A model generated the notes under the pieces. It searched no databases. It was not told the origin of the DNA and worked only from the letters and a program-made list of their open reading frames with translations. Made by a program: the position numbers and the translations under genes. 64,000 bases of DNA. Source: Bifidobacterium italicum (lineage in GTDB: Bacteria; Actinomycetota; Actinomycetes; Actinomycetales; Bifidobacteriaceae). Numbering within the stretch: the first letter of the stretch is position 1; every line of letters starts with the position of its first letter. The stretch spans positions 1-64,000 of the forward strand of contig NZ_MVOG01000011.1 of assembly GCF_002286915.1 (NCBI RefSeq), written 5' to 3'. Positions 46,748-53,902 of this stretch are shown in pieces.

Positions 46748-46874
46748 CTCTGGAAGGATGTCCGATGCCGTCGTCCGCAAGCGATCGGCCGGCTGCAGGG
46801 CGGCCGCCGGTGGGGGCGCGAAGCGAATCGTCGCGGAATGCTGACATACTGGGGGCGCGCGTCATGCGCAGTAC

Positions 46875-46972
46875 ATCACACGCAGGGGAACCCCGCGGCC
46901 GTCGCGTCCGGGGTTGAGAAGACCTCGGTCTGACCCTTTGAACCTGTTGGTTGATACCAGCGTAGGGAGTCG
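46875..46972 (+). ncRNA. TPP (THI-box) riboswitch
   Basis: Contains the conserved core GTTGAGAA, then TGACCCTTTGAACCTG, then TTGATACCAGCGTAGGGAG. The tenA ATG is 4 nt beyond it and the AGGGAG near 46963-46969 doubles as ribosome site, so thiamine pyrophosphate should block translation initiation. Confidence 0.93.
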
Positions 46973-46975
46973 ATT

Positions 46976-47725
46976 ATGATCACAGCCGAATCCGGCGATG
47001 CCTCCGCCATCACGTTGACGAATCTGCCGCCGTTCGCACAGCGGATGCGCGACGCGGCGAATCCGGTATGGGAGGAGGGCTACCAGCAGCCGTTCATCCG
47101 CGAACTCGGCGCCGGCACGCTGCCGACGCGCAAGTTCGCGTTCTACCTCAAGCAGGACGAGCTCTATCTCAACGATTACGCGAAAGTGCACGCGCTCGCG
47201 CTCACGAAGACCGACGACGCGGAGATCATGAAGTTCATGGTCGACGTGCAGCGTGCGATCTTCGACGTCGAGAAATCACTGCACGGCGACTATCTGGCGT
47301 CATACGGCATCACGCCCGAGGAGATGGCCCATGCCAAGCAGTCGGCGTTCGCTCGTGCGTACACGACGCATATGCTCTCGGTCGCCTATGGCGGCGACCT
47401 GCTCGACGTGCTCGTCGCCGTGCTGCCATGCGCGTGGGTGTACGCCGACTACGGGCAGCGGCTCGCGGCCGAGTTCGCGGACACGCTCGACGACAACCCG
47501 TACAAGAGCTGGATCGACACCTACAAGACCGACGAGTTCTGGCGGTCGTCGGCGTGGCTGCTCGAGCACATCGAACGTCTCGTCGCGCACGCCGACGAAG
47601 ACAAGCGCGAACGGCTCGTCGAACTGTTCATTCACGGCGTCGAGAACGAATACATGTTCTGGGCGAGCGCGTACGACGAGCAGATGAGCTGGAAGCCGCA
47701 GTGGGCGGCGCTCGACGCGCAGTGA
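46976..47725 (+). CDS. tenA: TenA-family thiaminase II / aminopyrimidine hydrolase
   Basis: 249 residues. Active-site Cys152 in VLPCAWVYADYG and Glu in HGVENEYMFW near 223-225 match TenA. Salvages the thiamine pyrimidine (HMP) from degraded thiamine. Direct control by TPP riboswitch. No thi genes follow; the next gene is in the opposite direction. Confidence 0.95.
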   Translation: MITAESGDASAITLTNLPPFAQRMRDAANPVWEEGYQQPFIRELGAGTLPTRKFAFYLKQDELYLNDYAKVHALALTKTDDAEIMKFMVDVQRAIFDVEKSLHGDYLASYGITPEEMAHAKQSAFARAYTTHMLSVAYGGDLLDVLVAVLPCAWVYADYGQRLAAEFADTLDDNPYKSWIDTYKTDEFWRSSAWLLEHIERLVAHADEDKRERLVELFIHGVENEYMFWASAYDEQMSWKPQWAALDAQ

Positions 47726-49958: not shown

Positions 49959-52535
49959 TCACATATTGAACACATGCGCCACGATGACCAAGGTGATGGT
50001 GAGCGCCACGCCGCCGCAGAACAGCCAGTCGCGCGTATGCATCGTCAGCGGATGCCATTGCGTGCGCCGCACGCCCTCCTGGTAGCAGCGGGCGTCCAAT
50101 GCGAGCGCGAGGTTGTCGGCGTGCCGGATCGCGCCGGCGAACACGGGGATGACTATCGCGCACATCGCACGCACCCGTTTGGCCATACCGCCTGACTCGA
50201 TCGAGCCGCCGCGGGCCGCCTGCGCGTCGCGAATCGAGACGGCTTCGCGCACGAGCGTGGGAAGGAACCGCAGCGCGAGCGAGAGCACCAGACAGATCTC
50301 CTGCACATGGATCCACCGGCGCAACGGATGCAGCATCCGTTCGAAGGCGCTCGACATCGCCGTCGGCGTCGTCGTGAGCAGCACGACCGCCCCGAGGACG
50401 ATGACGAAGGCGAAGCGGAGCATGTACAGGAGCGCGACATGCACGCCGCCCGTGGTGATCGCCCATCCGCCGACGCGCAGCAGCGGCGTGCCGTCGCGGA
50501 CGACCGCGAGGTTGAGCAGTCCGGTCACGACGAACAGCGCCAGGAAGACGCGCACCGACGTGAGCAGCCGGCGCACGCCGACGCGGCTCGCGAGCGTGAT
50601 CGCGGCGGTCGCGGCGAAGCCGACGGCGAGTTGCGGCCACGTCGACATCGCGAAGGCCGTGAACATGAGCGCGAGAATGCCGAGCATCTTCGCGCGCGGA
50701 TCGAGGGAGGAGATCCAGGAATAGTCGGCGTCGCTCATGGAGATCGTCTCCGACGGCATCGGACGGGACGATTGATCGCAGGGGCGCGGGCCGTCGTCCC
50801 GATCCGCGTCGCCGCTACCGGCGGCCCGGGCGGATGCGATGCCGCCGCTCGCGTCGCGGAGGGGGCGGTCGCACCGGTCCGTGCTGCCCGTAACGTTCTC
50901 GCAGGGTTCGCCGACGCCGTCGGACGGCGGGAATTCGACGACGACGTCCGCGAGTGCGTGCGCCATCGCGAGGTCGTGCGTGATCATGACGATCGTGACG
51001 CCGCGCGCGCGCATGCTGCGGATGATGTCGCGGACGCGCACGCGGGCGGCGTCGTCGAGCGATGCGGTGGGCTCGTCCATGACGAGCACCTTCGGGCGGC
51101 ATGCGAGCACTCCGGCGATCGCGACGAGCCGCTGCTGGCCGCCTGAAAGCGTGAAGGGGTCGCGGTCCGACAGATGTCCGGCGCCGACGAGGCGCAACGC
51201 CTCGTCCACGCGTGCGCGCACGTCCTCGTCGGGAAGCCCCTGGTTGCGCGGGCCGTACGCCACGTCCTGCGCGACGGTGCTCGCGAACAACTGCCGTTCG
51301 GGATGCTGCATGATGAAGCCGAGCCGGCGGCGCAGGGCTGCGCGTTCCCTGCGGTTCGCGTGGACGAGTTCGACGTCGGCGACGCGGATCGAACCGGCGT
51401 CGGGCTTCAGCAGCGCACACAGCAGCTTCGCGAAGGTCGTCTTGCCCGAACCGTTCCTGCCGACGACCGCGAGCGTCGATCCGGACGCCACCCGCAGTGA
51501 GAAGTCGTCGAGTACCGCGGTGGCGCAACCAGGGTAGCGGAAGGTCACATGGTCGAAGACGACGGCCGGCGCCGACGTTACGGGCTGCATCGTTAAGGGC
51601 GGCACGTCGTGGACATGCGTCGACGGTGCATCCGGTAGGGCGTCGGCAAGGAAGGGTCTGGTCGTTGGCGGTACATCCCATGGCGAGGCGGAGGGCGGCG
51701 TGGTGGGCGTCGCAGGTGCTGCCGGTAGGGAATCGGCGAGAGCGGATGCTGCCGGCAGCGGTACATCATCGGCTGCCATCGGTAGTGGAGGCTGAGAGGC
51801 TGCTACAGGTAGCGGATGGGTGCATGCAGGCGAAGAATGGTCGTCCGCCGGATGCAGACGCCCGTGCTCCAGACGCAGTGTGCGCGTCGCATGCGCGAGC
51901 TCGGCGGCGTCATGCGTCACGATGATGATCGCGGTGCCGCGGGCCTGGATGTCGTCGAGCGCGGCGAGCACGTCGGCGCGCGCCTCCGGGTCGAGCATCG
52001 CCGTCGGTTCGTCGAGGATGAGCAGCCGCGAACGCATCGCGAGCATGCCGGCGATCGCGACGCGCTGCTGCTGTCCGCCCGAAAGATCCGCCGGATTCGC
52101 CTCGGCGAACGCGGTCATGCCGACGGTCGCGAGCGCGTCGTGCACGCGCTCGCCGATCTGTTCGCGTGGAGTCGAGAGGTTCTCCGGGCCGAACGCGACG
52201 TCCTCGGAGACGACGGTCGTGACGATCTGGTCCTCGGGATTCTGGAAGACGATGCCGATGTCGCGGCGCGCGCGGCGGTAGGCGTCGGCGCGCGCGCCGA
52301 CGGCGTCGTCGAAGACGGGTACGCCGGCGAGTTCCACGGTGCCGCCGTCGGGGGCGGCGAGTCCCGCGGCGAGCAGCGACAGCGTCGACTTGCCCGAGCC
52401 GTTCGACCCGACGAGCGCGACGCGTTCGCCCTCCCGCACGAGAAGGTCGACGCCGTCGAGCGTCCATGTCGTTCCGCCGTCGTAGCTGAACCGCACGCCG
52501 CGCATGTCGACGACGGCGTGTGGGGTCGCCGTCAC
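49959..52535 (-). CDS. ECF transporter energising protein: EcfA-EcfA'-EcfT fusion
   Basis: 858 residues in one frame with no internal stop. ATPase domain 1 (about 1-222): Walker A SNGSGKS 44-50, [22 protein letters not shown]. Pro/Ala/Ser linker (225-320), ATPase domain 2 (320-530: GRNGSGKT, LSGGQQRLVAI, MDEPTASLDD), linker 532-599. EcfT membrane protein occupies 600-858 with both conserved Arg motifs (AARGG and LDARCYQEG). GTG 52535 overlaps the RibU-like stop (GTGA), so expression follows the FMN riboswitch. An internal ATG at 50738 with GGAG upstream could also give free EcfT. Both linkers contain the dispersed repeat motif. Confidence 0.9.
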   Translation of the reverse strand: MTATPHAVVDMRGVRFSYDGGTTWTLDGVDLLVREGERVALVGSNGSGKSTLSLLAAGLAAPDGGTVELAGVPVFDDAVGARADAYRRARRDIGIVFQNPEDQIVTTVVSEDVAFGPENLSTPREQIGERVHDALATVGMTAFAEANPADLSGGQQQRVAIAGMLAMRSRLLILDEPTAMLDPEARADVLAALDDIQARGTAIIIVTHDAAELAHATRTLRLEHGRLHPADDHSSPACTHPLPVAASQPPLPMAADDVPLPAASALADSLPAAPATPTTPPSASPWDVPPTTRPFLADALPDAPSTHVHDVPPLTMQPVTSAPAVVFDHVTFRYPGCATAVLDDFSLRVASGSTLAVVGRNGSGKTTFAKLLCALLKPDAGSIRVADVELVHANRRERAALRRRLGFIMQHPERQLFASTVAQDVAYGPRNQGLPDEDVRARVDEALRLVGAGHLSDRDPFTLSGGQQRLVAIAGVLACRPKVLVMDEPTASLDDAARVRVRDIIRSMRARGVTIVMITHDLAMAHALADVVVEFPPSDGVGEPCENVTGSTDRCDRPLRDASGGIASARAAGSGDADRDDGPRPCDQSSRPMPSETISMSDADYSWISSLDPRAKMLGILALMFTAFAMSTWPQLAVGFAATAAITLASRVGVRRLLTSVRVFLALFVVTGLLNLAVVRDGTPLLRVGGWAITTGGVHVALLYMLRFAFVIVLGAVVLLTTTPTAMSSAFERMLHPLRRWIHVQEICLVLSLALRFLPTLVREAVSIRDAQAARGGSIESGGMAKRVRAMCAIVIPVFAGAIRHADNLALALDARCYQEGVRRTQWHPLTMHTRDWLFCGGVALTITLVIVAHVFNM

Positions 52536-53422
52536 TGCTGTCCCCGGTTGAGCAGCGTGGAGACCGGCTTGTAGACCACGAACGTGATGACGCCGTTGAG
52601 CGCGAACTTGATGAGGTTGAACGGCAGCAGCACCGGGACGATGAGCTTCGCGACGTCGGCCATCGACATGTGCGCGTACATCGGCGTGATGACGAGGTTC
52701 GCGCCGATGGCGACCGCGAGCGCGAGCAGTGCGCCGACGAGGATGCCGACGAGCGCCGACGCGCGCGTGCGGCGACGACGGTAGATGAGGGCGGCGGGTA
52801 CGGAAAGGGCGAGCGCCACGAGCACGGACATCAGAGTGCCCCATGGATTCGTGAACAGGTGGGGCAGGAAGCCGAGGACGCTCACGATCGCGGCCGCCGA
52901 TGGGCCGAACGCGAAGCCGGCGACGAGGCAGACGACGCCGGAGGGGTCGTATTTGAGCCACGGCGCCGCCGGCATGAGCGGGAACTCGATGAAGCTGACG
53001 GCCATCGCGAGCGCGACGAACAGCGCGTACATCGCGATGCGGCGCGTGGACCAGCGGCCCACGTCCCCGACGCCCGTCGAATGCGCGTCGTCGGGACGGT
53101 GGTCGCGCGATGCGCGCGTGGAATGCGTCGATGGGGTCGGCGTGGCGGCGTCGGCTATGCGGGATGTGCCGCCGGTAGCGGTATCGGCGGCGGATGATGA
53201 CGTGCTACCGGTAGTGCTAGCGGATGCGTTATCGGTAGTGGGGGAGGACGTGCTGCCGGTAACGGATGACGCCGTGCTGTCGGAAGCGGATGGCGACGTG
53301 GTGTTGGTGGTGCTACCGGTAGGGGCGGGGGATGGGGACTTGGCGGCGTCGTCGGTGATTGGATGGGCGTCGTCGGTCGGTTGATTGGATGCGGGTGTGA
53401 GGGCATCGTTGATTGTGCTCAT
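52532..53422 (-). CDS. ribU: Riboflavin ECF substrate-specificity component (RibU-like)
   Basis: 296 residues. The first about 125 are a Ser/Thr/Ala/Pro low-complexity tail built from repeat motifs, unlike normal RibU. Then about six membrane helices with the RibU-type sequences KYDPSGVVCLVAGFAFGP and LLPFNLIKFALNGVITF. Binds riboflavin; control by an FMN riboswitch directly upstream supports the assignment. Works with the following EcfA-A'-T fusion. Confidence 0.92.
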   Translation of the reverse strand: MSTINDALTPASNQPTDDAHPITDDAAKSPSPAPTGSTTNTTSPSASDSTASSVTGSTSSPTTDNASASTTGSTSSSAADTATGGTSRIADAATPTPSTHSTRASRDHRPDDAHSTGVGDVGRWSTRRIAMYALFVALAMAVSFIEFPLMPAAPWLKYDPSGVVCLVAGFAFGPSAAAIVSVLGFLPHLFTNPWGTLMSVLVALALSVPAALIYRRRRTRASALVGILVGALLALAVAIGANLVITPMYAHMSMADVAKLIVPVLLPFNLIKFALNGVITFVVYKPVSTLLNRGQQ

Positions 53423-53430
53423 CGCAGAGC

Positions 53431-53570
53431 TCCGTTTCTTTCATCCGGACTGTCACCGTTGGCTTCGGAATCCGACCGAATCCACCGCTTTCGCGGGTTG
53501 CGGGCTTCGCCGTGGGCGCATCGGATGCGCGGCGCTACCGCCAGTAAGGAATTGCACCTTCCCTGAAACT
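53431..53570 (-). ncRNA. FMN riboswitch (RFN element)
   Basis: Reading minus: GTTTCAGGGAAGGTGCAATT, then CCTTACTGGCGGTA, AGCCCGC, GGATTCGGTCGGATTCCGA, GCCAACGGTGACAGTCCGGA, and GAAAGAAACGGAG. These are the conserved RFN blocks in order. The ATG of ribU lies 8 nt after the terminal GGAG (the ribosome site), so control is likely translational. Confidence 0.95.
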
Positions 53571-53902
53571 ACGTCTCCCATCTGTATACGTAGGCCGGGA
53601 TAAACGGATGCGGGCACCTCCCCGGACGCGTCGAAAAACGGGGCGGACGGGAGGGCGACGGGCAAACGATGGTCGTGAAAACCCCTTGTATGACGCGCAA
53701 GTGCGAGGAAACGCAACATGGCAATCGTTATCAGAAAACATCGTTCCATAATGTGGATAGTTTGCAAAACATGAATGTTTATCGGTTGAACTAATATATC
53801 ATGTAGTAAGGCCGTCATCCGCGGACGCATGGCGCATCCGCGGACGGGCCCGAGATGGTGGATCACTGGGTGACACCCTGGAAACGGTAAGGAAGGTTGA
53901 CG

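Follow-up and report, generated by a model that had tools for sequence, protein, structure and literature searches.

A putative single-chain ECF motor, EcfAA'T, coupled to ribU in the Bifidobacteriaceae

The ribU locus

The window, by which we mean the whole 64,000-nucleotide stretch of Bifidobacterium italicum DNA that was analysed, carries on its reverse strand a gene for a riboflavin S component, ribU, which is preceded by an FMN riboswitch and followed by one long gene in which two ECF ATPases (A and A') and the membrane subunit EcfT (T) are joined (Table 1). Translation of this frame gives 858 amino acids and a stop without interruption; Pfam recognises in the product two ABC_tran stretches and CbiQ at residues 606-825, and NCBIfam assigns the first ATPase to ECF_ATPase_1 (TIGR04520) and the second to ECF_ATPase_2 (TIGR04521). 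A first-pass annotation made from the letters alone had described one 858-codon frame with two ECF ATPases and EcfT, and the translation and both family searches bear this out. It had also placed an FMN riboswitch upstream and a GTGA, in which the TGA stop of ribU overlaps the GTG start of the fused gene, and both were found there. As a general feature, GTGA coupling was rejected: the overlap occurs only in the window and its nearest relatives, and most other loci have a gap of ~12-360 nt.

Table 1. Coordinates of the features of the ribU-ecfAA'T locus in the window.
Feature	Position	Strand	Remarks
FMN riboswitch aptamer (RF00050), ribU leader	53429..53574	(-)	81.9 bits (gathering 66.2), E 4.6e-17
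ribU, riboflavin S component	52532..53422	(-)	296 aa; transporter domain ~residues 124-292
RibU N-terminal extension, residues 1-120	53063..53422	(-)	low-complexity, Ser/Thr/Pro/Ala-rich; three TACCGGYAGC copies
Fused ecfA-ecfA'-ecfT gene	49959..52535	(-)	858 codons; GTG start overlapping ribU stop
First ATPase, EcfA1-type, residues 7-229	51849..52517	(-)	without usual C-terminal domain
Disordered linker A-A', residues 233-316	51588..51839	(-)	pLDDT <50
Second ATPase, EcfA2-type, residues 320-537	50925..51578	(-)	without usual C-terminal domain
Disordered linker A'-T, residues 542-601	50733..50912	(-)	pLDDT <50
EcfT membrane domain, residues 606-858	49962..50720	(-)	both Arg motifs (AARGG, DARCY)
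Internal in-frame ATG, proposed EcfT start	50736..50738	(-)	present; judged not functional

The residues expected of a working motor are conserved in the fused protein. In an alignment of 43 sequences, the Walker A, LSGGQ, Walker B and H-loop residues of both ATPases are invariant, and T carries two X-Arg-X coupling motifs, of which R775 is invariant and R816 is present in at least 90% of the sequences. AlphaFold2 modelled the whole chain with a pLDDT of 82.5 and a pTM of 0.79, which gives fair confidence for the three domains and their arrangement, and the disorder is restricted to the linkers. When the whole model was compared with the PDB, Foldseek returned mostly tandem-ATPase and single-ATPase chains, because the ECF motors in the PDB are split over separate chains.

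Among solved proteins, the best relatives of the window RibU are RibU of Thermotoga maritima (5kbw, E 1.4e-29) and then RibU of Staphylococcus aureus (3p5n, E 1.2e-15). Like both of them, the window RibU is an S component; it shares an LKYDPS stretch with the T. maritima protein, has an AxxxA motif in helix 1 and differs from both in the addition of the low-complexity, 120-residue N-terminal extension. The FMN riboswitch was detected in every Bifidobacteriaceae RibU locus scanned, and also in both of the Coriobacteriia loci considered below. With riboflavin as the substrate indicated by RibU homology and by the FMN riboswitch, the RibU system is in all likelihood a riboflavin importer. Passages of PMC7522473 describe ribU as universal and single-copy in the genus Bifidobacterium, with an FMN riboswitch, report a ribU homologue as essential in B. 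breve and state that most bifidobacteria need external riboflavin.

Distribution of the fused gene

A gene of this kind could arise on paper, if separate genes were run together by an error of assembly or sequencing, and the window genome is indeed a draft of 72 contigs; nothing else favours this explanation. The same architecture, however, recurs in dozens of independent genomes, with proteins that share 32-84% identity with that of the window along the chain, and this conservation across the family rules out a sequencing error or frameshift at the junction, which makes an artefact extremely improbable. The gene is present in 99 of the 101 genomes of the genus Bifidobacterium, and in all 95 of those that are near-complete or of good quality. 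Fifty-one full-length loci, drawn from genus and family searches and from named records, with at least one species represented twice, hold A, A' and T in this order in one frame, and a focused check found the RibU-linked T within a frame of 787-1117 aa in 21/21 genomes.

Outside the family the picture is different. The nearest named records to the window protein are from Bifidobacterium, and among the 80 nearest loci of GTDB representatives the triple fusion was seen in 7/7 Bifidobacteriaceae vs 0/73 others; these 73 loci, in a few of which the contig ends before T, keep the gene order as an A-A' fusion plus T or as three genes. Long frames were followed up in 78 further actinobacterial genomes sampled across the class, and one triple fusion came out, in genome G226 (L078:2687-5275), which lies outside the Bifidobacteriaceae, stands behind a TPP riboswitch and has a thiamine-type T. 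Elsewhere in the actinobacteria, long open frames that surround T are mostly products of chance: the G226 gene was the one true A-A'-T among 16 regions, which had been picked mainly for their long frames. The A-A'-T architecture beside RibU is a trait of the family Bifidobacteriaceae and is rare elsewhere among the sampled genomes. In two genomes, G070 (C22) and G173 (C2), the reading frame of the fused gene seems to be split in two, which may reflect errors of assembly or may mean that fusion is dispensable.

The triple fusion had been singled out at first reading as a notable architecture. It is common within the Bifidobacteriaceae and so not peculiar to this genome, but the open literature searched yielded no description of an A-A'-T fusion, whether RibU- or YkoE-linked. 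The published arrangements of ECF ATPases are the homodimer, the heterodimer and the A1-A2 fusion, and A-A'-T is not named among them (PMC6828968); the fusion is likewise unmentioned in the passages of PMC7522473 referred to above. The triple fusion looks undescribed, RibU and its riboswitch in bifidobacteria being already known; new as well is the loss of the ATPase C-terminal regions described next.

Loss of the ATPase C-terminal regions and of a docking residue

Both fused ATPases lack the C-terminal 50-60 residues that form the group II dimerisation helices, and disordered linkers take their place. Such helices are a hallmark of group II ATPases and play a part in dimerisation (PMC6828968). 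The loss was measured with profiles of 290 and 287 positions built from stand-alone clostridial ATPases. In the triple fusions (n=51), the match ends at a median of 234/290 (range 229-261) for the first ATPase and 223/287 (range 214-249) for the second, whereas in fusions of A and A' only, those of the Coriobacteriia included (n=15), the corresponding medians are 284/290 (271-288) and 282/287 (278-285), and the ranges of the two groups do not overlap. The C-terminal regions are thus lost in 51/51 triple-fused loci and kept in 15/15 A-A'-only fusions. NCBIfam agrees, with matches covering 2-215/269 and 3-216/279 in the window protein vs 2-268/269 and 4-278/279 in the coriobacterial locus L140. 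The linkers vary in length and sequence over the 51 loci, and we infer that the tether now does what the C-terminal helices did before.

The fused protein departs from group II in a second respect, in its T domain. In group II, two phenylalanines of the CH3 helix of T dock the S components (PMC5037267). In the fused T, the first is kept in ~90% of the sequences and the second is replaced by Leu/Ile, so that the group II pair is not retained.

It had also been suggested that an internal ATG, with GGAG upstream, allows a free EcfT to be made. The sequence exists, at a suitable spacing, and the linkers are long and disordered, as would suit either such a start or cleavage of the chain within a linker. 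Against this, a linker ATG with a Shine-Dalgarno-like stretch was found in only 5/51 loci, the frequency of this combination per codon is 0.0012 in the linkers vs 0.0019 elsewhere in the same genes, and its two nearest relatives retain only the ATG, without the GGAG. Since it is not conserved, and since such sites are no more frequent in the linkers than elsewhere in the gene, the internal start was rejected, and release of free EcfT by either route is very unlikely.

Descent of the motor

A tree built from 80 T domains groups the RibU-linked fusions in a supported clade (100/96), which is sister to Olsenella/Tractidigestivibacter (100/99); this clade lies next to Clostridia modules and apart from the YkoC-type T, and so does not belong to the group I clade. 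A PDB sequence search with T gave group II EcfT proteins as the best matches (4hzu, E 3.6e-30; 5d3m, E 6e-27), and the A, A' and T sequences all fall in the group II clade. By descent, as the T tree and the PDB matches show, the motor belongs to group II, and in this respect the initial view of a dedicated transporter in place of a shared group II module is not supported. The group II module of lactobacilli (4huq/4hzu, 5d3m, 5jsz) has A, A' and T subunits homologous to those of the window motor, with no difference in the catalytic motifs or the coupling Arg motifs, but it consists of three proteins, retains the C-terminal helices and serves several S components, whereas the window motor is one chain, has lost the helices and is linked to ribU.

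The sister loci in the Coriobacteriia (L140, L141) likewise have an FMN riboswitch, RibU, a fused A-A' and then T. There, however, T has a gene of its own, and neither ATPase is shortened at its C-terminal end, whereas both are in the window protein. Because these loci show the expected intermediate, with A-A' fused and T separate, it appears that the joining of T was the last step and took place on the bifidobacterial branch.

Probable dedication to RibU

RibU adjoins the fusion on the same strand in 49/49 fused loci with enough context, so that the motor and its S component share one operon, which is a group I trait. This adjacency and the decay of two group II hallmarks support in part the view that the motor is a dedicated one, and FMN control is a further point in its favour. 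The module is probably devoted largely to RibU.

A different reading is that the fused motor still works as a shared group II module and energises, besides RibU, the orphan biotin S component BioY. The BioY gene of the window genome (C17:2657-3160, L196) has no ATPase or T gene within ~3 kb, BioY is an orphan likewise in 10 other bifidobacterial genomes scanned, with a BioMNY-type cluster only in G175, and the T components found in G076 number just two, the RibU-linked fusion and that of a YkoE thiamine operon. On the other hand, a solitary BioY is able, in other bacteria, to transport biotin unaided by a motor, which counts against sharing. The first helix of the orphan BioYs is also atypical: it lacks the AxxxA motif at the place where RibU and the clustered BioY of G175 possess it, with some uncertainty in the register. 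The replacement of the second CH3 phenylalanine in T likewise counts against sharing. Taking both sides into consideration, we regard sharing with BioY as somewhat less likely than not; the claim of the first-pass annotation that the locus encodes a dedicated riboflavin transporter is favoured by the RibU adjacency and the decayed hallmarks, and is tempered by the orphan BioY. A 1011-aa frame around BioY is a chance frame.

Other ECF modules in the same genome

A second A-A'-T fusion, of ~1000 aa, lies 40 kb away on the same contig (L054:4525-7650; G000:C3, ~88-91 kb), with a TPP riboswitch and a YkoE-like S component upstream of it. In the T tree its T belongs to a different clade from the RibU-linked T and has unfused bifidobacterial YkoC as neighbours. 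A single origin of the two fusions is not supported, their T domains being in separate clades, and since the second T stands near unfused YkoC, the A-A'-T architecture has arisen at least twice in the family.

The known thiamine transporter YkoEDC, a group I system (PMC5037267), resembles the RibU module in that it is riboswitch-led and its fused ATPases are too short for the C-terminal domain; it is a dedicated operon. In Bacillus, the T of YkoEDC is separate and falls in another clade, while the YkoEDC homologue of the window genome is itself A-A'-T, independently.

The riboflavin and thiamine T genes lie ~19-47 kb apart in 16/18 genomes (17 and that of the window), a long-range conserved neighbourhood. 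The window also contains a TPP riboswitch at 46874-46985 (+) directly before a TenA/THI-4 family gene at 46976-47725 (+); the end of the aptamer overlaps the first ATG of this frame, and the true start may be further in. A third ECF module (L055:3937-6305; G000:C53) consists of a fused A-A (534 aa) and an overlapping T (255 aa), right after which the contig ends.

Proposed mechanism

We propose that the locus encodes an ECF riboflavin importer with a single-chain EcfAA'T motor, derived from group II, tethered and mainly dedicated to RibU, a reading that we consider very probable. Extracellular riboflavin would be bound by RibU, and the A-A' pair, as it binds and hydrolyses ATP, would move the coupling helices of T and so cycle RibU, as in known ECF transporters, in which such helices of T have been described (PMC10368641). 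The riboswitch would leave the operon on at low FMN and allow FMN to repress it. In the ancestor of the Bifidobacteriaceae, where A and A' already formed one chain, EcfT would have been joined to them and both ATPases would have shed their C-terminal dimerisation helices, with flexible tethers holding A, A' and T at 1:1:1 and keeping them apart from the subunits of the other ECF motors of the cell. More tentatively, we suggest that a covalent tether came to stand in for the C-terminal dimerisation domains of EcfA and EcfA', that this and the decay of the S-docking surface made a once promiscuous group II motor into a single chain dedicated to riboflavin, and that the thiamine transporter of this lineage underwent such a fusion too, as insulation between coexisting ECF motors. 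This wider scheme is possible, and somewhat more doubtful than not.

A natural single-chain ECF motor has its subunit order and stoichiometry fixed, and would be a convenient object for structural and single-molecule study of S-component toppling. It would also test whether the C-terminal helices serve only to hold A and A' together. The system is likely the route by which vitamin B2 enters bifidobacteria. The transporter itself being known, the surprise is modest; what should draw the notice of specialists is that neither ATPase has its C-terminal domain any longer and that the thiamine system was fused in parallel.

Regional repeats

Two short motifs, which occur in either orientation and are often clustered, are enriched in this part of the genome. 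TACGGGYGG is present in 22 copies in the window (22263-57426) vs 0.6 expected, and in 80 copies on the contig of the window (C3, 145 kb; ~20-130 kb) vs a single copy in the 100 kb sampled from other contigs. Its longer form CTTACGGGYGG has 34 of its 35 genome copies on this contig and, in the relative G027, 29 of 30 on one contig. For TACCGGYAGC, 33/41 genome copies are on C3; one lies in the A-A' linker (51718-51727), three are in the N-terminal extension of RibU (53204-53213, 53252-53261 and 53312-53321), and the motif recurs in the stretch that holds the thiamine fusion gene, a pattern that would suit spread through unconstrained coding DNA.
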